Origin: an uncultured Gammaproteobacteria bacterium | Lineage (GTDB): Bacteria; Pseudomonadota; Gammaproteobacteria; Steroidobacterales; Foliamicaceae | Length of the DNA stretch: 64,000 nucleotides | Direction: 5' to 3' | Assembly (NCBI GenBank): GCA_951828235.1 | Contig: OX639965.1 | Location: 2,522,129 to 2,586,128 of the forward strand | In this document: piece by piece, positions 5,729 to 30,677 of the stretch | How the letters are laid out: each line of letters begins with the position of its first letter | How positions within the stretch are numbered: position 1 is the stretch's first letter | Position numbers and translations under genes: made by a program | Notes under the pieces: generated by a model | The model's input: the letters and a program-made list of their open reading frames with translations, nothing else | What the model was told of the DNA's origin: nothing | Databases searched by the model: none

Positions 5729-6592
5729 CTAGCCGCCGCCTTGCGTGGCCGGCCCCTTGGCCCAGTTAAGCTTCTCGCGCAGCACCGAGAAATAGTTGTA
5801 ATCCGAAGGATGGATCAGCTTGAGCCGGCGGGAGAAACGGGACACGTGCAGGGTCTGCCCGTATTCGAGCACGCCCAGATCGACGCCATCGCAGCTCACG
5901 GCCGCCGTTATCCCTGTATCCACCGGAATGGCCAGCGTGAGTTTGGCGGCCCCGGGTATCACCAGCGGCCGGTCGTCCAGCTTGTGCGGACAGATCGGCG
6001 CCAGGACCGTGGCGTCAAGGCGCGGATCAACGATGGGGCCTCCGCAGCTCATGGCGTAGGCGGTGGAGCCGGTGGGCGTGGCGGCGATGAATCCGTCGCC
6101 GCGATGGGTGGCGATATGACGCGCGTCGACGGTGGTGGAGAGTTCCAGAATGCGTGCTCCGCCGCTCCGATGCGCCACGACATCGTTTACCGCCGCGGCG
6201 CGCAGGGCCTTGCCCTTTCTGCGGGTCAGCCTGGCGCTCAGCAGCATGCGGCGTTCCGAGAAATACTGGCCGGCGAGCAGCGCCGACAGTTCGGACTCGA
6301 ATCGCTCCTGCCCCAGGTCGGCCAGAAATCCAAGCCGGCCCAGGTTCACGCCGAGCAGGGGCGTGTCCTCCCGCACGGCGACTTGCGCCGCGCGCAGCAT
6401 GGCGCCGTCCCCGCCCATGGCGATGATCAACTGGGCGTCCTGCGCCGCCGTCAGGTTCTGCTGCCCGTGCGCAAGCGTGGCCGAGCATCCCAGTTCCGTC
6501 AGATGGGACGCCAGTTCGCCGGCTGCCCGCGCGATGGCGCCGTGCCCGTCGCGGGCAAGAATCGCCACCCTTTGAAACTGGATTTTCGGCAT
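5729..6592 (-). CDS. nadK: NAD kinase
   Basis: NadK phosphorylates NAD to NADP in the cytoplasm. The 287-residue product carries the GGDG motif at residues 60-63 (AMGGDGAMLRAAQ), the NLGRLGFLADL segment, and the substrate-binding block DGFIAATPTGSTAYAMSCGGPIV, then PICPHKLDDRPLVIP. All are diagnostic. It is the first gene of the nadK-recN-fur-bamE series and is divergent from grpE, sharing a 130-bp upstream region with it. Confidence 0.96.
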   Translation of the reverse strand: MPKIQFQRVAILARDGHGAIARAAGELASHLTELGCSATLAHGQQNLTAAQDAQLIIAMGGDGAMLRAAQVAVREDTPLLGVNLGRLGFLADLGQERFESELSALLAGQYFSERRMLLSARLTRRKGKALRAAAVNDVVAHRSGGARILELSTTVDARHIATHRGDGFIAATPTGSTAYAMSCGGPIVDPRLDATVLAPICPHKLDDRPLVIPGAAKLTLAIPVDTGITAAVSCDGVDLGVLEYGQTLHVSRFSRRLKLIHPSDYNYFSVLREKLNWAKGPATQGGG

Positions 6593-6635
6593 GAGCAGAA
6601 CCTTTGTTCGTCAGCAATCCGGCAGGCTGGTACAG

Positions 6636-20615: not shown

Positions 20616-22019
20616 TCAAACAGTTGCAGCAATATCCTGAATACATTTCCAAGCTTGGCGGACGTGCCGCGCCTCGGTTCGCGTCTGGCCGACCGACAAG
20701 CGTATGACTCTGCGTCCGTCCACGGCGCCCGGTGTGAGATACAGGCGTCCATCGTCGTTGATGGCTTTGAGCAGACGCTCGTTGAGCTCGTCCAGTGTGT
20801 CGGGGGCCGCGCCGCGCGGTGCATAGCGCCATGTGATCAGCGCCAGGTTGGGGCCGGTGACCAGTTCGAAGTCTTCCGAGGTTTGAATCGCCTGCGCCAA
20901 TTCCTCCGTCCAGCGGATATGCGAGCGGATCTTTTCCCTTAAGCCCTCGGCGCCGAACGCGCGGATCACGAACCAGAGTTTCAGGGCGCGGAAACGGCGG
21001 CCAAGGGAAATGCCGTAGTCCCGGTATTCGGTAATTCGCTCGTCGCGCGTGTTCTGAAGGTATATCGGGTCGATCGACAGGGACTGCTGGAGCGAAAGGG
21101 GGTTCTTGAGAAAGTGCGCCGAGCATTCGAAGTTGGTGAACATCCACTTGTGCGGATTGAATACGAAGGAATCGGCGTGCTCCATTCCCTCCAGCAGATG
21201 ACGGTATTCCGGCAGAATCAGCGCGCTGCCGGCCCAGGCGGCGTCCACATGCAGATAGATATTCTCCCTCCGGCAGATCGCGCCGATTTCCTCCAGGGGG
21301 TCCATTGCCCCGGTGCCGGTAGTGCCCAGGGTGACGACCACGCAGGCCGGGGTCCGGCCTGCGTGCCGGTCGGCGTCGATCGCCGCCGCCAGGGCGCTAG
21401 CCACCATGCCTTGGTGCGAGTCGGTCTCAATGCTGCGGATGCAATTCATCGGAAATCCGGCAATGCGCGCTCCCTTGTGGACCGAGGAGTTGGCTTCGGT
21501 CGAGGTATAGAAGACCTGCTTGTCGAGACTCGTCTGCTCCCGCGCCTTCTCGCGCGCCGCAAGCATCGCGCACAGCGTCGCTCCCGAGGCCGAATCCTGG
21601 ATCACGCCCCGCCATTCCCGCGGCAATCCCAGCAGGTCGCGCAGCCACTCCATCATGCGGGCTTCCAGCTCGTTGGCCGCAGGCGATGTTTCCCACAGCA
21701 TGCATTGCGCCGCGATTCCCGCGACCAGCATTTCCGCCAGCACCGACGGCGGGCTGGAGTTGGCGGGAAAGTAGGCAAAAAAAGAGGGATGCTGCCAGTG
21801 GGTGATGCCTGGTGGTATCAGCCTTTTGAAGTCCTCAAGAATTCTCCCCATCGGTTCCGCCTGCTCCGGCGCGCGATCAGGCAGGGCCTTGAGCAAATCA
21901 CCCGGCCGCGCCCGAGAACGCACCGGATAGTTCTCCACGGACTCGAAATAGTCGGCGATCCAGTCCACGGCCTCGTGGGCATGGCGGCGAAACGCCACGG
22001 TATCCAGGCAATCAGTCAT
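20616..22019 (-). CDS. PLP-dependent aromatic L-amino-acid decarboxylase family protein
   Basis: This 467-residue enzyme belongs to group II pyridoxal-phosphate decarboxylases (Trp/Tyr/DOPA/Phe type). It has ITHWQHPSFFAYFPANSSPPS near the N-terminus, the cofactor region DSASGATLCAMLAAR, HVDAAWAGSAL (Asp-x-Ala for the pyridine ring) and the Schiff-base Lys in FNPHKWMFTNFEC (about residue 291). The substrate cannot be told from sequence; an aromatic amine product is inferred. It overlaps the small upstream gene by 8 bases. The divergent O-methyltransferase gene on the other side could modify such an amine, but that link is speculative. Confidence 0.88.
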   Translation of the reverse strand: MTDCLDTVAFRRHAHEAVDWIADYFESVENYPVRSRARPGDLLKALPDRAPEQAEPMGRILEDFKRLIPPGITHWQHPSFFAYFPANSSPPSVLAEMLVAGIAAQCMLWETSPAANELEARMMEWLRDLLGLPREWRGVIQDSASGATLCAMLAAREKAREQTSLDKQVFYTSTEANSSVHKGARIAGFPMNCIRSIETDSHQGMVASALAAAIDADRHAGRTPACVVVTLGTTGTGAMDPLEEIGAICRRENIYLHVDAAWAGSALILPEYRHLLEGMEHADSFVFNPHKWMFTNFECSAHFLKNPLSLQQSLSIDPIYLQNTRDERITEYRDYGISLGRRFRALKLWFVIRAFGAEGLREKIRSHIRWTEELAQAIQTSEDFELVTGPNLALITWRYAPRGAAPDTLDELNERLLKAINDDGRLYLTPGAVDGRRVIRLSVGQTRTEARHVRQAWKCIQDIAATV

Positions 22020-22305: not shown

Positions 22306-22956
22306 ATGACTGCCTATCCCGACCTCGACACCTACCGCCGCAGCCTGTTCGACTACGAGGACGACTTGCTTGCCGGGATCATGCTGGGGGCGGTGGCGCG
22401 CGGCATGCCCGACATTTCCGTGGACGCGGAAACGGGGCAGGCGCTGAATCTCCTCGCGCGGCTGATCGGAGCGCGCAGGATCCTCGAATTCGGCACCCTG
22501 GCGGGCTATTCGGGAATCTGGCTTGCGCGCGCCCTGCCGCCCGGCGGCCTGCTGGTAACGAACGAGTTCGAACCGCTGCACGCCGAAGTCGCCGGTGAGA
22601 ACTTCCGGCGCGCCGGAGTGGCGGACCGGGTTCGCATCGTAATGGGCGGAGCGCTGGACGTGCTGCCGGAACTGGCGGGACACGGTCCGTACGACCTGGT
22701 GTTTATCGACACCGCCAAGGAAATTTACAGCGATGTCCTGGACTTCGCTCTTGAACACACCCGGCCCGGCGGCCTGATCCTGGGGGATAACACCAATTGC
22801 TTCGGTCAGGGCCACGAGGAGCTGGCGCCGGACCATCCAGCCTACGGCATCCAGGTCTTCAATCGGCGCATCGCCACCGAAAAAAGGCTGCAATCGATGA
22901 TCATTCCGGTTGGCTCCTGGCTTTCCGTTTCCCGCGTGCTCGAAAGCCCAGAATGA
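22306..22956 (+). CDS. SAM-dependent O-methyltransferase (catechol-OMT/CCoAOMT-like)
   Basis: The 216-residue product is a class I methyltransferase of the O-methyltransferase family 3. It has the SAM-binding motif ILEFGTLAGYSGIWLARALP, the acidic loop VTNEFEPLHAEVA, and the metal/substrate region YDLVFIDTAKEIYSDVLDFAL with RPGGLILGDNTNCFG. Such enzymes methylate catechol-like hydroxyls with a divalent metal; the actual substrate is unknown. The stop overlaps the start of the next gene (ATGA). It is divergent from the decarboxylase pair. Confidence 0.88.
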   Translation: MTAYPDLDTYRRSLFDYEDDLLAGIMLGAVARGMPDISVDAETGQALNLLARLIGARRILEFGTLAGYSGIWLARALPPGGLLVTNEFEPLHAEVAGENFRRAGVADRVRIVMGGALDVLPELAGHGPYDLVFIDTAKEIYSDVLDFALEHTRPGGLILGDNTNCFGQGHEELAPDHPAYGIQVFNRRIATEKRLQSMIIPVGSWLSVSRVLESPE

Positions 22957-24311
22957 CCGACGTGCGTGCGCGGGCGCGCCTCAAGCCGTGGCGTACCGCA
23001 ACAGAGTTTCCAGGCGGGCGGTCTAAGGCGCGCCGCCGGGGCTTTGCCGCCACGGCTGTGGCGCTTGCATTCCTTGTCGCCCCGCGCGCATGGGCCGGGG
23101 AGGTTCTTGAGGTCGCCGGAGGCGTCTATCTGGCGACCGGCTTCGGCCCGTCAAACTCCACCCTGATCGCCGGGGACGACGCGGCCATCCTGGTCGATGC
23201 GCACCACTCCGGGACCGCGGCGGAAAGGGCCGCCGCAGCCTACCGGCAAGCAGTGGAGCTGCCCTTTGCCGCCGTGATCTACACCCACGGCGATCAGTCT
23301 CACGTGGCCGGCGCGGCTGCCTTTGCCGGTCGTTACTTTGTTCCCAACGTCTACGCGCGCTCCAACTTCAGGCTCAGGCGCAGCGTGATCGGCGTGGAGG
23401 CGCGAAAACGGCGCCAGCGGCAGAAGGGCCTGCTTCTCGGAGATCGGCAACGCACTGCAACGATGATCGACCCGCTGCCGGAAGAGGAGGATACAGGGGA
23501 TCGCTACCTGCCTCCCGACCGCCTGTTTTACGGCGACCGCTATCGGCTGCGGATTTCCGGCGTAATGCTGGAGCTGGTAGCCGCTCCCGGCGAGAGCCAG
23601 GATCAGCTCTACGTCTGGCTTCCCGAACGCAAGGTGCTGATCACCGGAGGAAATTTCTACCAGGCCTTCCCCGGCGACCTGGACAGTATCGGGGACCAGG
23701 CGGCCGATTTCGAGCAATGGGCGCGCAGCCTGGACCGGATGCGGGCGGAGAAGGCCGAAGTGCTGATTGCCGGCCATCTTCAGCCCGTGTTCGGTGCGGC
23801 TGCGATTGACCGGGCGCTGGCCGACTATGCGGCGGCGCTTCGTTTCGTCCTCGACGAGACCCTGCGGGGAATCGACGCGGGCCTGGGTCCCGGGGAACTG
23901 GCCGCTGCGATACGCCTGCCCCCGGAACTGGCCTCAAGCCCGGTCCTGGCGCAGGCCCACGGCACCCTGGGCTGGGCGGTGCGCTCCGTCTACGCTCGCC
24001 ACATGGGCTGGTTCGACGGCAAGCCCGGCAGCCTGGCGCCGCTCGCTCCGCGCACGCTGGCCTGGCGATTGCACGAACTGGCCGCCGGCGGCATCTCGCT
24101 GGACGCGGCGCTGGACAATGCGCTGCTGCTGACGGATTATCGCTGGGCGGCATATCTCGCGGACCAGCTTCTGCTGATCGAGCCTCGGGAGCGGCGTCAC
24201 GCTGAGCGCAAGGCCCTGGCGCTTGAAGGCATGGCCCGGGGACTGGAAAACCCCCAGGCGCGCAACTACCTGCTGTCCGCCGCCAGGGAGCTCCGCCTAA
24301 CCACGCCGTAG
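22953..24311 (+). CDS. Secreted MBL-fold protein related to alkyl sulfatases, metal site degraded
   Basis: The 452-residue product (start MTDVRARARLKPW, overlapping the methyltransferase stop) has an N-terminal export signal preceded by arginines (about 28-48, ending PRAWAGE). The fold follows BDS1/SdsA1-type alkyl sulfatases: an early strand FGPSNSTLIAGDDAAILVDA, then AVIYTHGDQSHVAGAAAF, PGESQDQLYVWLPERKVLITGGNFYQAFP, AEVLIAGHLQPVFG, and a helical dimerisation region. However, the usual HxHxDH metal motif reads HGDQSH, and the bridging Asp of the GDNFY block is Gly. It may be a non-hydrolytic or differently liganded relative. Sulfatase activity should not be assumed. Confidence 0.72.
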   Translation: MTDVRARARLKPWRTATEFPGGRSKARRRGFAATAVALAFLVAPRAWAGEVLEVAGGVYLATGFGPSNSTLIAGDDAAILVDAHHSGTAAERAAAAYRQAVELPFAAVIYTHGDQSHVAGAAAFAGRYFVPNVYARSNFRLRRSVIGVEARKRRQRQKGLLLGDRQRTATMIDPLPEEEDTGDRYLPPDRLFYGDRYRLRISGVMLELVAAPGESQDQLYVWLPERKVLITGGNFYQAFPGDLDSIGDQAADFEQWARSLDRMRAEKAEVLIAGHLQPVFGAAAIDRALADYAAALRFVLDETLRGIDAGLGPGELAAAIRLPPELASSPVLAQAHGTLGWAVRSVYARHMGWFDGKPGSLAPLAPRTLAWRLHELAAGGISLDAALDNALLLTDYRWAAYLADQLLLIEPRERRHAERKALALEGMARGLENPQARNYLLSAARELRLTTP

Positions 24312-24522: not shown

Positions 24523-25404
24523 ATGGTTGAACGGACCCTGCGCGATAAGACCTGCCTCATAACGGGCACGGCTCGCGGCATGGGCCGGATCGCCGCGCGC
24601 GAGCTCGCGAAGCTGGGAGCGCGGCTGATCCTGGTTGACATCAAGGGCCAAGAGGGCCGCGAGGCGCGCGATGAAATCGTCGAACTGACCGGCAACGATC
24701 AGCTGGAATTCCTGCACTGCGACATTTCTTCGTTTTCGCAGGTGCGCTCGCTCGCAAACCATGTGCTTGAGCGCTACGACCGGCTTCACGTGCTGATCAA
24801 CAACGCCGGGGTCGTGAATCCCGTCTACCGGCTCAGCGAGGACGGCTTTGAACAGCATATGGCGGTGCATCATCTCGGACATTTCCTGTTGACCCGGCTG
24901 CTGCTGGACCGCATGAAGGAATCGGCCCCGGCCCGGGTAGTGATGATTTCCTCGGACGGGCACAAGGCCGGCGGCCCCCTGGACTGGGACGACATGGAGA
25001 TCAGAAAGCCCTGGGGGCGCGGTTTGATCTCCAATCGCGGCGCCTTTGCCGGCTACCAGAAGTCCAAGCTGGCCATGACGCTGATCACCTATGAAATGGC
25101 CCGGCGCCTGGAGGGCAGCGGCGTTACGGTGAACGCGGTTTCTCCCGGCTATTTCGTCAAGACCACCGTGTACGACAACATGCGCGGGCTGTTCGGGCTG
25201 GGCTGCAAGCTGCTGCGGCCGTTCTTCAACGACCCGGAGCGCTCGGTGAAGACCTACGTGTACCTCGCGGCTTCGTCGATGGTGGAAAAGGAAAGCGGCA
25301 AGTACTGGGAGCACCTGGCCACCAAGGAAAGTTCGGCGGCGTCCTACGACCGTTCGGAGATGAAGCGCCTGTGGGACTGGAGCGAGCGGGCCGTGGGGTT
25401 GTAG
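24523..25404 (+). CDS. Short-chain dehydrogenase/reductase (retinol-dehydrogenase-like)
   Basis: The 293-residue product is an NAD(P)-dependent SDR. It has the cofactor motif TGTARGMG (residues 14-21), the acidic residue after beta-2 (LVDIKGQEG), the structural NNAG motif, MISSDG for the catalytic Ser, and the YQKSK catalytic Tyr/Lys. The overall layout (HHLGHFLLTRLLLDRM, PGYFVKTTVYDNM) is closest to the retinol-dehydrogenase/WW-domain oxidoreductase branch. Substrate unknown. It ends 5 bases before the imuA-like gene. Confidence 0.87.
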   Translation: MVERTLRDKTCLITGTARGMGRIAARELAKLGARLILVDIKGQEGREARDEIVELTGNDQLEFLHCDISSFSQVRSLANHVLERYDRLHVLINNAGVVNPVYRLSEDGFEQHMAVHHLGHFLLTRLLLDRMKESAPARVVMISSDGHKAGGPLDWDDMEIRKPWGRGLISNRGAFAGYQKSKLAMTLITYEMARRLEGSGVTVNAVSPGYFVKTTVYDNMRGLFGLGCKLLRPFFNDPERSVKTYVYLAASSMVEKESGKYWEHLATKESSAASYDRSEMKRLWDWSERAVGL

Positions 25405-25409
25405 CCGTG

Positions 25410-26135
25410 ATGGAATACGCCGAAAACCTTGCGAGCGGGGGCGTCCCGCCCTCGAAAAGTCCGCGCCGCGGCCGGGGACGGGACTGGCCGCTTGCGGTGC
25501 TGGAACGGCCCGGCGTTCACGAGTTTCTGGGGGAGCGGGGCGCGGACCGGGCGGCGGCGCTGTCGCTGCTTCTGTGCGCCGCCGCGGGCCTGCCGGGCGC
25601 CGCCGAGAGGCGCCTGCTGTGGGTGCAGTCTCTCGCCGCCTCGCGCCGCTGGGGGCTGCCCTGCGGCGAGGGACTGGATGCCATCGGGCTGAACCCCCGC
25701 AGCGTGCTTATCGTGGAGCCGGAGACCGAACGCGAGTTGCTCTGGGTGCTGGAGCAGGCGCTGGATTGCTCCGGCCTGCTGGCGGTGGTGGGCTGCCTGC
25801 CCGGGGTGGAGCGGCATTATGGCTTCACCGCCTCTCGGCGGCTGTCGCTGCGCGCCCTGCGTAAGGGATCACGGCTTTTCCTGGCGCGCGGCGCCCGCAT
25901 CCGCGAAGCCACGTCGGCACAGACCCGCTGGCAGGTGGAACCCGCGCCCAGCGCGCCCATGGAACTTGCCTGGAGGGGGTTTGAACTGCCCGGCGCGCGA
26001 AGCTGGCGCCTGAACCTGCTGCGTGCCCCCGGCTGGACCCCCGCATCGTGGAATATTGAATGGAGCGAGCATGAGAATCGCCTGCGTATGGCTGCATCGT
26101 CTGCTGAGCCAAGCGCCGTCCGCGCCGCCGGCTGA
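25410..26135 (+). CDS. imuA: ImuA-like translesion synthesis accessory protein
   Basis: ImuA is a RecA/SulA-related accessory factor of the ImuA-ImuB-DnaE2 mutasome. The 241-residue product (start MEYAENLASGG) has LLLCAAAGL, RLLWVQSLAASRRWGLPCGEGLDAIGLNPRSVLIVEPETERELLWVLEQAL and RRLSLRALRKGSRLFL, the recognisable RecA-like core of this family, although conservation is low. Identification rests also on the adjacent imuB and dnaE2. Residues about 9-16 come from an inserted palindromic repeat (25433-25454), so the native start could be downstream, for example GTG 25496. It overlaps imuB by 65 bases. No LexA box was recognised upstream. Confidence 0.8.
   Translation: MEYAENLASGGVPPSKSPRRGRGRDWPLAVLERPGVHEFLGERGADRAAALSLLLCAAAGLPGAAERRLLWVQSLAASRRWGLPCGEGLDAIGLNPRSVLIVEPETERELLWVLEQALDCSGLLAVVGCLPGVERHYGFTASRRLSLRALRKGSRLFLARGARIREATSAQTRWQVEPAPSAPMELAWRGFELPGARSWRLNLLRAPGWTPASWNIEWSEHENRLRMAASSAEPSAVRAAG
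25433..25454 (-). repeat. 22-bp palindromic repeat, copy 2 (inside imuA)
   Basis: On the plus strand the copy contains GGGGGCGTCCCGCCCTCG, one base different from the copy at 26385-26406. It is translated in the imuA frame as SGGVPPSK. The palindrome core folds as a 6-7-bp GC stem. Confidence 0.75.
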
Positions 26136-27516
26136 ATCGGCGGTGCGGCTGCGCGCGCAGCGCCTCGAGCGCCTGGCGCAGGCGTGCTGGCGGTTTACGC
26201 CGAAGATCGCGCTTGCTCCCCCGGATGGTTTCTTCCTGGACGTTTCCGGCTCCATCGGCCTTTTCGGCGGGGAGGAAAAGCTGCTGGAAGAATTGCTGGC
26301 CGAACTCAGGCTGAGCGGCGAGCCCGTTCGGGTCTGCCTTGCGGATACGCCCGCCGCCGCCTGGGCCGGCGCCCGCGCCGCCCGGAGCGAGGGCGTCCCG
26401 CCCTCGAAGACGGATACGCGTGCCGCCTCACGTGTCGAGGCATGCACTGGTTTCGGGCAATTGCCTGTCATTCCGCCCGGCGCCGGTCTTGCGGCCATGA
26501 GCACTTGGCCAGTTGAAGCGCTGCGGCTTGATGCGGAGACCTGCGCGACCTTGCGGGAACTGGGACTGGACAGCATCGGCGCACTCGATCGCCTGCCGCC
26601 GGAATCGCTGCAGGCGCGATTCGGGGCCGAAACCGCACTGCGGCTCAAGCAGGCCGCCGGCCGGGCTCCCGAGCCTTTGGATTACCTGCCGCCGCCCCGC
26701 GATTTCCGGGCCCGGCTGGAGTTCGACAGCCCCGTCGTGCTGCAGCAACCCCTGCAGGCGGCGATCGGCGAGTTGACTGTTCGGCTTGGCGATCAATTAG
26801 CGGCTGCGGGCCTGGGCTCACGGCGCTTTGAGTTGCGCCTGCACCGTTCCGACGGCAAGCGCATCCGGCATGGCCTGCGCACGGCGCGGCTTATTCAGCC
26901 GGCCCCGCAGCTTGCCGAGCTTCTGGATGAAAAGATGCAGGCGAACGGGCCCGCGCCGGACCGCGGAGTGGGTGTAGATGCCGTCAGTCTGGTGGCTTAC
27001 GACACCGAACCGGTGTCCGCCGAGCAGGCCGACTGGCTGTCCGGCGCTTCATCGGGGATCCTCAAGGGCGACCTGGCCCGCCTGGTGGACCGGCTCTGCA
27101 GCCGCCTGGGCGCCGAAGCGGTCCGCACCCCGGTTCCGCAGGCCAGCTACCTGCCCGAGAGGCGCTGGCGGCTTGTTTCCGCCCTGGATTGCCCGCCGCC
27201 GGAGTCCTTCGTCGAGGAGCAGGGAAATTCACCCCGTGCGCCGCTCCTGCTGCTGGAACAGGCCGAGCCCGTGGACGCGGCGGCCACGACGGCCGGAGGA
27301 CCGCCGGCCTGGGTACGCTGGAGAAGCAGCGCTTACCCGCTGCGGCGTGCCCAGGGTCCCAGGCGGGTGGCGCCGGAATGGTGGCTGAGCGGCGAGCAGC
27401 CGGGGCGGGAATACTGGCTGATGGAGGATGAACGCGGCCGGCGCTTCCACCTGTACCGTGAGCTTGAGGGCGGCGCAGAGCCCTGCCGCTGGTACGTTCA
27501 GGCCCTGGCGGCCTGA
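26071..27516 (+). CDS. imuB: ImuB, Y-family polymerase-like mutasome subunit
   Basis: ImuB is a catalytically inactive Y-family polymerase relative that links the beta clamp, ImuA and DnaE2. I take the ATG at 26071 (MRIACVWLHRLLSQ), within the imuA overlap, giving 481 residues. Visible regions are RFTPKIALAPPDGFFLDVSGSIGLFGGEE (palm, lacking the DE metal residues of active polymerases), ELGLDSIGALDRLPPESLQARFG (thumb helix-hairpin-helix), the little-finger domain, and a C-terminal tail. Residues near 106-113 (SEGVPPSK) are encoded by an inserted copy of the 22-bp palindrome in the palm/thumb linker. Confidence 0.88.
   Translation: MRIACVWLHRLLSQAPSAPPAESAVRLRAQRLERLAQACWRFTPKIALAPPDGFFLDVSGSIGLFGGEEKLLEELLAELRLSGEPVRVCLADTPAAAWAGARAARSEGVPPSKTDTRAASRVEACTGFGQLPVIPPGAGLAAMSTWPVEALRLDAETCATLRELGLDSIGALDRLPPESLQARFGAETALRLKQAAGRAPEPLDYLPPPRDFRARLEFDSPVVLQQPLQAAIGELTVRLGDQLAAAGLGSRRFELRLHRSDGKRIRHGLRTARLIQPAPQLAELLDEKMQANGPAPDRGVGVDAVSLVAYDTEPVSAEQADWLSGASSGILKGDLARLVDRLCSRLGAEAVRTPVPQASYLPERRWRLVSALDCPPPESFVEEQGNSPRAPLLLLEQAEPVDAAATTAGGPPAWVRWRSSAYPLRRAQGPRRVAPEWWLSGEQPGREYWLMEDERGRRFHLYRELEGGAEPCRWYVQALAA
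26385..26406 (-). repeat. 22-bp palindromic repeat, copy 3 (inside imuB)
   Basis: The core GAGGGCGTCCCGCCCTC is a perfect 7-bp inverted repeat around a 3-base loop. It is read in the imuB frame as SEGVPPSK and begins a stretch of about 20 residues (to TGFGQLP) that looks unlike the family. It differs from copy 2 at a single base in the shared 22. Confidence 0.78.
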
Positions 27517-27542
27517 AATCCTTTCCACAGGCTGCGGACGGA

Positions 27543-30500
27543 ATGACACAGGCCTACGCCGAACTGGCGGCGGCAAGCAACTTCTCCTTTCTGCGCGGCG
27601 CCTCTCACCCGGCGGAAATGATCGACCGGGCCGCGGAACTGGGGCTGGCGGCTATCGGGCTGGCCGATTGCAACAGCGTGTCCGGCCTGGTAAGGGGCCA
27701 TGTCGCGGCGCGCGAGGCCGGTATCCGCTTTCTTCCGGGCGCGCGCCTTCAGCCCCGTGACGGACCGGAAGTCATCTGCTATCCGCGCGACCGCGCCGCA
27801 TGGGGCCGCCTGTGCCGCCTGCTCACCCTTGGAAAGAGGCGGGCCGCAAAGGGTCAATGCGAATTCAGCCTGACGGAACTCTGCGCGCATGCCCGGGGGC
27901 AGGTGCTGCTGGTCGTCCCGCCCCGCGCCCTGCGGGAGATATCCGGTCTGGCGCGCCTGACCAACGCCGGCGCTCACCGGGTGGCGCTGGCCGCGCCGCT
28001 GTTGTTCGACGGCGGCGACGCGGTGCGCCTCAAGTGGCTGGAGGAACGGGCCGAGCAATGGTCCATCCCGATGGTGGCCGTGGCCGATGCGTGGATGCAT
28101 GCGCCGGAGCGCAAGTCGATCGCCGACGTTCTGGTCTGTGTGCGCGAGGGCGTGACTATCGATAGCGCGGGTTTCCGGCTTGAGGCCAATGCCGAGCGGC
28201 ATTTGCGCGCGCCGCAGGACATGTTGCGGCTGTACGAGGGCCACGAGCAAGCCGTGGCGCGCAGCGTCGAGTTCGCGGAGGAGTGCCGCTTTAGCCTGGA
28301 AGAACTCCGTTACGAATACCCGGACGAACAGGCCCCCAAAGGCTATACCCGCCAGCAATGGCTGGAGCAACTGACCTGGGAATCGGCCGGGAAGCGCTAC
28401 CCGGAGGGCATTCCCGGGCGGGTCCGCAAGATGGTCGAACACGAACTCGAGCTGATCCGGGAACTGGATTACGCACCGTACTTCCTGACCATCTACGACC
28501 TGGTCCGCTACGCGAGAGAGCAGGGAATCCTGTGCCAGGGTCGGGGCAGCGCCGCCAATTCCGCGGTTTGCTTTTGTCTGGGCATTACCGCCGTGGACCC
28601 GGAAAAGATCGACCTGCTGTTCGAACGGTTCATCTCCAGCGATCGTGGCGAACCTCCCGATATCGACGTGGATTTCGAGCACGAGCGGCGCGAGGAAGTC
28701 ATTCAATATCTATACGAACGCTATGGCCGCGAACGCGCCGGTCTGACCGCCACGGTCATTCACTACCGGCCGCGCAGCGCGTTGCGCGAGCTGGGCAAGG
28801 CGCTGGGACTGCCGCACGCGACCCGGGACGCGCTGGCCGGGCGCATCTGGGGACGCGAGGGGGGCTGGCCCGACGAAGCGCGGGTGAGGGCGCTGGGCCT
28901 GGATCCGGAGCACCCGCGGCTGAAGCGGACCATCGAAATGGCCGCCGAACTGGTCGGGTTTCCCCGTCATCTGTCCCAGCATCCGGGCGGCATGGTGCTG
29001 ACCAGCGGGCGTCTGGACGAGGTGGTGCCGATCGCCAACGCGGCGATGGCGGGGCGCACCATGATCGAGTGGGACAAGAACGACCTGGACGACCTCAAGA
29101 TGCTGAAGGTGGACGTGCTGGCTCTGGGCATGCTGACCTGCCTCAGAAAGTGCCTGGACCTGCTTGGCCGGCACCATGGCCGCAAGCTGACGCTGGCTTC
29201 CATCCCCGCGGAAGACCCGGCGGTTTACGACATGCTGTGCAAGGCGGACTCGATCGGCGTGTTCCAGGTTGAGAGCCGGGCGCAGATGAGCTTTCTCCCG
29301 CGCATGCGCCCGCGCTGCTTCTACGACCTGGTTATCGAGGTGGCGATCGTGCGGCCCGGGCCGATACAGGGCGACATGGTCCACCCGTATCTGCGCCGCC
29401 GGCACGGCGAAGAGCCGGTGTCCTATCCCTCCCCGGAGCTTAGGCGGGTCCTGGCCAACACGCTGGGCGTGCCACTGTTCCAGGAACAGGCGATGCGCAT
29501 TGCGGTAGTGGCGGCCGGGTTCAGCCCCGCGCAGGCGGACGCGCTGCGCCGCTCCATGGCGACTTTCCGGCATGCCGGCACGGTGAAGGATTTTCGCGAG
29601 AAGTTCGTGGGCGGCATGATCCGGCGCGGTTATTCCACGGAGTTCGCGGAGCGCTGCTTCAGCCAGATCGAGGGATTCGGCGAGTATGGATTTCCCGAGA
29701 GCCACGCCGCGTCTTTCGCAATCCTGGTCTACGCGTCGGCGTGGTTCAAGCGCCACTATCCGGAGGTTTTTGCCTGCGCGCTTCTCAACAGCCAGCCCAT
29801 GGGGTTCTATGCGCCGGCACAGATCGTGCGCGACGCCCGCGAGCATGGCGTGACCGTGTTGCCGGTGGATGTTAATGAGAGCGAAATGGACTCGATCCTG
29901 GCCCCGGACGGCGCCGGCGGGCTGGCCGTGCGCCTGGGATTGCGGCAGGTGCGGGGGCTGAGTGGGCGGACGGCGAAACGCCTGGTCAGCGAGCGTGAAC
30001 ACGGCTACGAAGACATCCCCGGCTTGCGCCGCCGGGCGAGGCTGGACAAGGGCGCTTTGCGCCGCCTGGCGCGCGCCGATGCATTCGAATCGATGGGGCT
30101 TGGCGGTCGGCGCGCCCTGTGGGAAGTCGAGCGGCTGCCCGTGGGCGGCCCACTGCCGCTGTTTTCGGCGGCCGGCGTGGACGACCTTCCCGATGAATTG
30201 GCGGCTGAACTGCCGGTGGAGCCGCCCGGGGAGCGCGTGCTACGCGACTACGGTGCAGTGGGCCTGAGTCTCAAGGGGCACCCGCTGACCTTTGTGCGCG
30301 CGCAATTGGGGGCATTGGGGTACTGGACCGCGGCTGCGGTCTCGGAGGCGGTTTCCGGTGAGCTGTGCGCCGCGGCCGGCCTGGTGCTCGTGCGCCAGGC
30401 CCCGCAAAGCGCCGAAGGCGTGGTTTTTCTGACCCTGGAAGACGAGACCGGCGTGGTCAACGTGGTGAACTGGCCCGGCGTTTTCCGGCGTTATCGCGAT

Positions 30501-30677
30501 ACGCTGATGTCGTCGGTTTTGCTGGGCGTAAGGGGCGAGATTCAGCGCGAGAACGACGTCATACACCTGGTGGCCCGCCGCCTGGAGAACCTTTCGGACC
30601 TGCTCGGAACGCTGGCCGCTGCGCCCGTTGCGGCGCCACATACGGCCCGCCTGACTCCGCGCCTCGGCCGCGCCTGA
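27543..30677 (+). CDS. dnaE2: Error-prone DNA polymerase DnaE2
   Basis: DnaE2 is the damage-tolerant C-family polymerase of the ImuA/ImuB/DnaE2 system. The 1044-residue product starts with the PHP domain (YAELAAASNFSFLRGASHPAEMIDRA), then the polymerase core with catalytic acidic residues in EPPDIDVDFEHERREEVIQYLYERYG and CQGRGSAANSAVCF, the EWDKNDLDDLKMLKVDVLALGML block, finger and helix-hairpin-helix regions, and a C-terminal OB fold (LVLVRQAPQSAEGVVFLTLEDETG). It is shorter than replicative DnaE, as expected. It lies 26 bases after imuB. Confidence 0.95.
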   Translation: MTQAYAELAAASNFSFLRGASHPAEMIDRAAELGLAAIGLADCNSVSGLVRGHVAAREAGIRFLPGARLQPRDGPEVICYPRDRAAWGRLCRLLTLGKRRAAKGQCEFSLTELCAHARGQVLLVVPPRALREISGLARLTNAGAHRVALAAPLLFDGGDAVRLKWLEERAEQWSIPMVAVADAWMHAPERKSIADVLVCVREGVTIDSAGFRLEANAERHLRAPQDMLRLYEGHEQAVARSVEFAEECRFSLEELRYEYPDEQAPKGYTRQQWLEQLTWESAGKRYPEGIPGRVRKMVEHELELIRELDYAPYFLTIYDLVRYAREQGILCQGRGSAANSAVCFCLGITAVDPEKIDLLFERFISSDRGEPPDIDVDFEHERREEVIQYLYERYGRERAGLTATVIHYRPRSALRELGKALGLPHATRDALAGRIWGREGGWPDEARVRALGLDPEHPRLKRTIEMAAELVGFPRHLSQHPGGMVLTSGRLDEVVPIANAAMAGRTMIEWDKNDLDDLKMLKVDVLALGMLTCLRKCLDLLGRHHGRKLTLASIPAEDPAVYDMLCKADSIGVFQVESRAQMSFLPRMRPRCFYDLVIEVAIVRPGPIQGDMVHPYLRRRHGEEPVSYPSPELRRVLANTLGVPLFQEQAMRIAVVAAGFSPAQADALRRSMATFRHAGTVKDFREKFVGGMIRRGYSTEFAERCFSQIEGFGEYGFPESHAASFAILVYASAWFKRHYPEVFACALLNSQPMGFYAPAQIVRDAREHGVTVLPVDVNESEMDSILAPDGAGGLAVRLGLRQVRGLSGRTAKRLVSEREHGYEDIPGLRRRARLDKGALRRLARADAFESMGLGGRRALWEVERLPVGGPLPLFSAAGVDDLPDELAAELPVEPPGERVLRDYGAVGLSLKGHPLTFVRAQLGALGYWTAAAVSEAVSGELCAAAGLVLVRQAPQSAEGVVFLTLEDETGVVNVVNWPGVFRRYRDTLMSSVLLGVRGEIQRENDVIHLVARRLENLSDLLGTLAAAPVAAPHTARLTPRLGRA

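Follow-up and report, generated by a model that had tools for sequence, protein, structure and literature searches.

Genes at the locus

The window analyzed here, a stretch of 64,000 nucleotides (G000:C1:2522129-2586128), lies in the 3.11-Mb, single-contig genome of an uncultured gammaproteobacterium. It harbors a gene for an alkyl-sulfatase-like MBL protein (P0001) next to genes for an O-methyltransferase and a PLP decarboxylase (Table 1). Two Pfam families were recognized in the MBL protein, Lactamase_B at residues 63-275 (67.6 bits, curated cut-off 22.7) and Alkyl_sulf_dimr (PF14863) at residues 314-448 (104.1 bits, cut-off 26). The latter ends four residues before the C-terminus, and no third Pfam family matched the 452 amino acids at E <= 0.001. 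The closest solved structures are those of Pisa1, SdsA1, YjcS and SdsAP (6.6e-36 to 2.4e-28), with Pisa1 (2yhe) at 6.6e-36 and SdsA1 (2cfu) at 4.6e-33. Based on its signal-peptide-like N-terminus, which was read by eye, the protein is presumably exported. In the signal-peptide region the window's copy carries an insertion, with 43 codons ahead of residue 44 (window positions 22953-23081) versus 20-25 in the other seven genomes.

Table 1. Positions of genes and protein features in the window.
Feature	Position	Strand	Basis or remark
PLP decarboxylase, divergent	20616..22019	-	nearest solved structures are DOPA and tyrosine decarboxylases
O-methyltransferase, Methyltransf_3	22306..22956	+	TGA overlaps ATG of MBL gene
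MBL protein CDS (alkyl-sulfatase-like)	22953..24311	+	452 codons, open frame
Putative signal peptide, residues 1-48 (...LAFLVAPRAWA/GEV)	22953..23096	+	read by eye
H84/H85, His pair newly fixed behind VDA strand	23202..23207	+	His in 8/8 genomes
HGDQSH, degenerate HxHxDH (H112, H117 kept; D114, S116 replaced)	23286..23303	+	alignment
E214, Glu ligand position kept (SdsAP E303)	23592..23594	+	alignment
G233, bridging ligand lost (SdsAP E322)	23649..23651	+	Asp in 15/15 canonical rows
Loop 241-251, N241, Y243, R246, R251 to G, L, I, A	23673..23705	+	alignment
H275, late His ligand position kept (SdsAP H367)	23775..23777	+	alignment
Alkyl sulfatase dimerisation domain PF14863	23892..24296	+	1e-29

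In all seven genomes in which both genes are adjacent, the stop codon of the O-methyltransferase gene and the start codon of the MBL gene overlap by 4 bp (ATGA). The methyltransferase is best matched by solved bacterial O-methyltransferases and more weakly by caffeoyl-CoA and catechol types. The decarboxylase gene adjoins the MBL gene, or the methyltransferase-MBL pair, in all eight genomes that harbor the MBL gene. The coupling to an O-methyltransferase named in the original prediction is reflected in the overlap, but the pairing is not obligatory. No match to the methyltransferase was found in genome G004, which possesses the MBL and decarboxylase genes, and neither of these two was found in G008, which possesses the methyltransferase. 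An obligate operon is ruled out by these genomes, and because the genes are separable a functional link between methyltransferase and MBL protein is unproven.

The methyltransferase gene of G008 is flanked by two similar ORFs of 127-135 amino acids on opposite strands (L126:4613-5020 and 6211-6594), and its locus suggests a rearranged site. Directly downstream of the MBL gene a short-chain dehydrogenase is encoded (24523-25404), which occurs only in the window's genome and in G007 among the stretches examined from the eight genomes. It is followed by three genes resembling an ImuA/ImuB/DnaE2 mutasome (25371-30677, named by eye).

Loss of metal ligands and of a conserved loop

In SdsAP, zinc one is coordinated by D196, H197, E322 and H367 and zinc two by H192, H194, E303 and E322 (PMC5426288). 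The corresponding positions in the window protein are S116, H117, G233 and H275 for zinc one and H112, D114, E214 and G233 for zinc two. According to the alignment with SdsA1 and Pisa1, the seven zinc ligands of the SdsA type have been reduced to four: H112, H117, E214 and H275 are kept, while H114 has become Asp, D116 Ser and the bridging D/E233 Gly. This agrees with the original prediction, which had deduced the loss of three usual ligands from the motifs HGDQSH and GGNFY and had recognized the later His, now aligned with H367 of SdsAP. The HxHxDH motif is degraded as described there, yet two of its four residues survive, and the retained E214 had been omitted. A proper HxHxDH elsewhere in the same strand-loop position, which would have spoken against the degeneration, does not occur, as the alignment is free of gaps in this region.

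Further losses had been overlooked. They affect N241, Y243, R246 and R251, which align with N307, Y309, R312 and R317 of SdsA1; R312 presumably contacts the sulfate. At positions 84 and 85 a His is present in none and one, respectively, of the 15 canonical rows of the alignment.

The His preceding N307 of SdsA1 and N318 of Pisa1, which we take to be the one that protonates the sulfate in Pisa1, is replaced by Pro in the window protein and in all 15 canonical GDN rows. Because of this Pro, the canonical GDN relatives themselves may not be alkyl sulfatases. To our knowledge no activity has been assigned to them, nor a function to the closest of them (L048 and L049). Protonation of the sulfate by a His has been described for Pisa1 (PMC3920027).

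A clade found in one genus

The gene is present in eight of the nine genomes of the genus. Position by position, all eight copies read H-G-D, followed by Q (window) or R (the other seven) and S-H, so that the clade sharing HGDQSH, for which a search had been proposed, exists in the form HGD(Q/R)SH. The recurrence of the motif in eight of eight genomes rules out a sequencing error. Three features of type III alkylsulfatases are not seen: instead of an intact HxHxDH the proteins contain HGDQSH or HGDRSH (8/8), the Glu bridging two zinc ions is replaced by Gly in six and by Ala in two genomes (position 233), and in the window protein Pfam detects no C-terminal SCP2-like domain. The latter is included in the domain list of SdsA1 and Pisa1 (PMC5426288). 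Residues H112, D114, H117, E214 and H275 are fixed in all eight genomes, as are H84, H85, D244 and D248, which are newly fixed in the clade and belong to about 40 positions with a newly fixed charged, His or aromatic residue. Two allele types that share approximately 72% identity can be distinguished (A in six genomes, B in two), and the ligand replacements fall at the same three positions in both.

Outside the genus the degenerate motif was not encountered in the genomes sampled. The pattern T-H-G-D-x-S-H-V-A-G, searched at the DNA level, was detected in eight of 396 genomes of the order, every one belonging to this genus; the backwards-pattern control gave none among the matches listed for the order genomes. 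In protein searches of the order (396 genomes), class (369) and phylum (398), the nearest outsiders were 34-43% identical; as these are samples in which at most four candidates were scored per genome, a copy outside the genus could be missed. Motifs were read in 12 outsiders (L048-L055 and L216-L219), all of which possess HxHxDH and the GD dipeptide. PF14863 was sought in 185 genomes of the class and matched in 39, with scores above the cut-off in 22. Thirty loci were fetched; 18 matched the profile of alignment A1, and 15 of the 18 keep HxHxDH. The remaining three are the window's own protein and two proteins with TQGHVDH (L106 and L107). A contig search with the window protein as single query yielded one relative, on a contig of G007, and a plasmid search yielded 11 records of 32-35% identity.

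The proteins with TQGHVDH (L020, L025/L107 and L106) represent a second PF14863-type branch, in which the first His is replaced by Gln and GD by GN. Their three rows form a clade of their own (100/99), and L020 harbors an Arg in place of the late His. In addition, 34 IMG/VR contigs (L056-L089) carry alkyl-sulfatase-family genes of 24-26% identity to the query, which are probably host DNA around prophages.

The phylogenetic tree comprises 42 rows, including a subset of the SdsA-long rows, and was midpoint-rooted for drawing only. All degenerate rows form one branch (100/100), nested in a set of 15 rows that also contains eight canonical GDN rows (98/96). L048 and L049 are the sister rows (94/89, just under the starring threshold). 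The stem of the degenerate clade measures 1.23 changes per column, versus 0.45 for the sister pair. As a clade, these proteins lack catalytic residues while being clear homologues of metalloenzymes.

Conservation was assessed with alignment A1, which omits the copy of G002 (a near copy of that of G001), a duplicate of the G007 copy, L015 (cut short) and L018 (nearly a duplicate of L017). Rows of the SdsA-long, TQGH and paralogue groups were excluded by design. Near-invariant positions, defined as conserved in at least 14 of 15 canonical rows, number 71. The degenerate clade keeps 58 of them and has lost 13 (77, 108, 114, 116, 171, 233, 241, 243, 246, 251, 336, 357 and 378). The loss tests cover 72 positions, 15 of them lost, scored against the window row alone. 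Added to the losses are S215 and a terminal column where the canonical rows have a gap; as both are counted outside ligands and loop, the loop test becomes more cautious. Taken alone, loss of the ligands (3/7) does not differ significantly from that of other conserved positions (Fisher p 0.15). For ligands and loop together, 7 of 15 positions are lost versus 8 of 57 elsewhere (p 0.011, with the loop chosen post hoc). Within the clade, 14 of the 15 residues in segment 110-124 around the motif are invariant, a value tied for the highest of any 15-residue segment, and the clustering of invariant positions along the protein is not unusual (longest run 12, shuffle p 0.60).

Selection

Pairwise dN/dS ratios (NG86) relative to the window's copy range from 0.17 to 0.23, and from 0.05 to 0.28 among the 15 pairs listed of 28. 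Control values relative to the window's genome were 0.11-0.15 for a canonical paralogue (five pairs), 0.10-0.12 for the O-methyltransferase, 0.15-0.16 for the decarboxylase and 0.05-0.08 for ftsH. The MBL gene is clearly under purifying selection, which is somewhat looser than in the controls.

Genome G005 carries an MBL gene of the G004 type (L038, dS 0.35), while its ftsH (dS 0.48) and O-methyltransferase (0.42) genes are about as near to those of the window as other genomes' are. This points to an exchange of alleles within the genus.

Structure prediction

A first AF2 model from 11 rows (pLDDT 46.6) was discarded. The second, from 14 rows, reached a mean pLDDT of 72.7 and a pTM of 0.65 but is poor at residues 142-183 and 241-248 (model residues 99-140 and 198-205), the latter being the altered loop. 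It matched Pisa1 with Z 30.8 and an rmsd of 2.7 over 305 residues. The match to SdsA1 also gave Z 30.8, with an rmsd of 9.7 over 369-375 residues, which leaves the position of the helical part uncertain. The model supports an MBL fold of the MBL domain, a match that is not independent, as the underlying alignment was built from SdsA-type sequences. Together with the Lactamase_B match this is in line with the original statement that the fold remains.

Comparison with known MBL proteins

The closest canonical relatives, L048 and L049, are GDN-type MBL proteins with PF14863. They share the two domains and a similar length with the window protein at 42-43% identity, but retain THGHVDH and GDNFY as well as the PNLYPIRG loop. 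SdsA1, Pisa1 and SdsAP share the MBL and dimerisation domains, the fold of the MBL domain (Z ~30) and the positions of H112, H117, E214 and H275. They are about 24-28% identical, however, and the window protein lacks three of their ligands and the equivalent of R312 and shows no SCP2-like domain in Pfam.

MBL folds without a functional metal site are already known from eukaryotic RNA processing and from cyanobacterial flavodiiron proteins. In INTS9 the mutated HxHxDH reads NYHC and three of four ligands are gone (PMC7980224). INTS9 and CPSF100 are MBL/beta-CASP pseudoenzymes; unlike the window protein, they belong to another MBL family and are subunits of eukaryotic heterodimeric RNA-processing nucleases. 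The MBL domains of flavodiiron proteins of the Flv1/Flv2 type lack the canonical metal ligands as well (PMC4390876, PMC7785958); these proteins are bacterial like the window protein, but belong to a redox family. A metal-dead member of the alkyl-sulfatase branch was not seen among the matches listed in the limited open-license full-text literature. PqsE has a non-hydrolytic role and, unlike the window protein, keeps its metal site. Its MBL fold matched with Z ~20, aligned to residues of the MBL part of the model only, and it has been solved together with RhlR (8dq0, by entry title).

Possible function and alternatives

The interpretation that we favor, with some reserve, is that the protein represents a genus-specific exported pseudoenzyme of the PF14863 alkyl-sulfatase branch of the MBL superfamily. 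The original prediction had left the choice between a pseudoenzyme and a different metal site. The former is the best reading because ligands and loop residues were lost together in a single clade that is under purifying selection. The exported protein would combine the MBL and dimerisation domains and probably work as a homodimer, which is the simplest assumption. With three of seven ligands lost, including the bridging carboxylate, the dizinc-bound attacking water could not be set up, and loss of the Asn/Tyr/Arg/Arg loop would remove part of the probable anion-binding wall. For Pisa1 a binuclear zinc cluster has been described as necessary to activate water (PMC3920027). Sulfate esters would probably no longer be cleaved, and the retained pocket may now bind a partner or a small ligand, possibly an aromatic one, without hydrolyzing it. 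As relatives of O-methyltransferases and aromatic decarboxylases are encoded beside the MBL gene, a methoxylated aromatic amine is a possible ligand. The clade and its canonical sisters would then form a before-and-after pair of an exported metallohydrolase that loses catalysis and keeps a job, and a match to PF14863 does not imply sulfatase activity. Against a pseudoenzyme speak the four ligand positions and the carboxylate D114, which are fixed in all eight genomes beyond the need of a dead site, the lack of significance for ligand loss alone, and the dN/dS values slightly above those of the paralogue and the neighboring genes.

The same fixed residues speak for the main alternative, a rebuilt metalloenzyme that would hold one metal in half of the old site and perform different chemistry, which we consider unlikely but credible. 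Such a site could consist of H112, D114 and E214 (one His and two carboxylates), perhaps together with H117/H275 or H84/H85, and all of these, as well as D244 and D248, are invariant in the eight genomes. Furthermore, Ser116 is encoded by TCT in all six alleles of type A but by AGC in both alleles of type B. Conservation across this codon-box switch, which occurs at two of eight conserved serines, is a weak hint that Ser116 itself is selected. On the other hand, the bridging ligand is lost, two His are all that is left in the other half of the site, and in view of the approximately 40 newly fixed charged, His or aromatic positions these few residues are not special by number. A more specific version is rather improbable. 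In it, a mononuclear carboxylate-rich site would turn the protein into a secreted enzyme of MBL fold whose activity is non-hydrolytic, possibly oxidative, and directed at an aromatic product connected with the decarboxylase and methyltransferase.

Instead of forming the homodimer assumed for the pseudoenzyme, the protein might be a regulatory or stabilizing subunit in a heterodimer with an intact paralogue, like dead MBL subunits elsewhere; this appears very unlikely. The genome does encode such a paralogue (L047:6879-8192; G000:C1:1591878-1593191), an exported-looking protein with intact MBL and PF14863 domains, HAHEDH and GDN. Both proteins thus share the two domains and signal-peptide-like N-termini, and the paralogue occurs in six of nine genomes (hits 87-100% identical), exactly the carriers of A-type alleles. 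However, the two genes are unlinked, their products are only 25-27% identical, and no copy of the paralogue was detected in G004 or G005, two drafts of about 94% completeness. Because the degenerate copy is the only PF14863 protein found there, a partner of the same family does not seem to be required in these two genomes, and an obligate heterodimer can be rejected for them with the reservation that they are drafts.

It is highly improbable that the protein still acts as a dizinc hydrolase in which Asp substitutes for the second His and some other residue forms the bridge. The MBL fold and four ligands are retained, but D116 and D233 are both lost, Gly or Ala at position 233 offers no metal-binding side chain, and the Asn, Tyr and two Arg of the loop have disappeared. 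A decaying pseudogene or an assembly error, in favor of which only the long stem branch speaks, can be dismissed, since the reading frame is open and free of internal stops in eight of eight genomes, the same motif recurs in each of them and dN/dS is low throughout.

Beside the canonical paralogue and divergent from it, a pair of genes for an efflux-pump-like adaptor and a transporter is located (named by eye).
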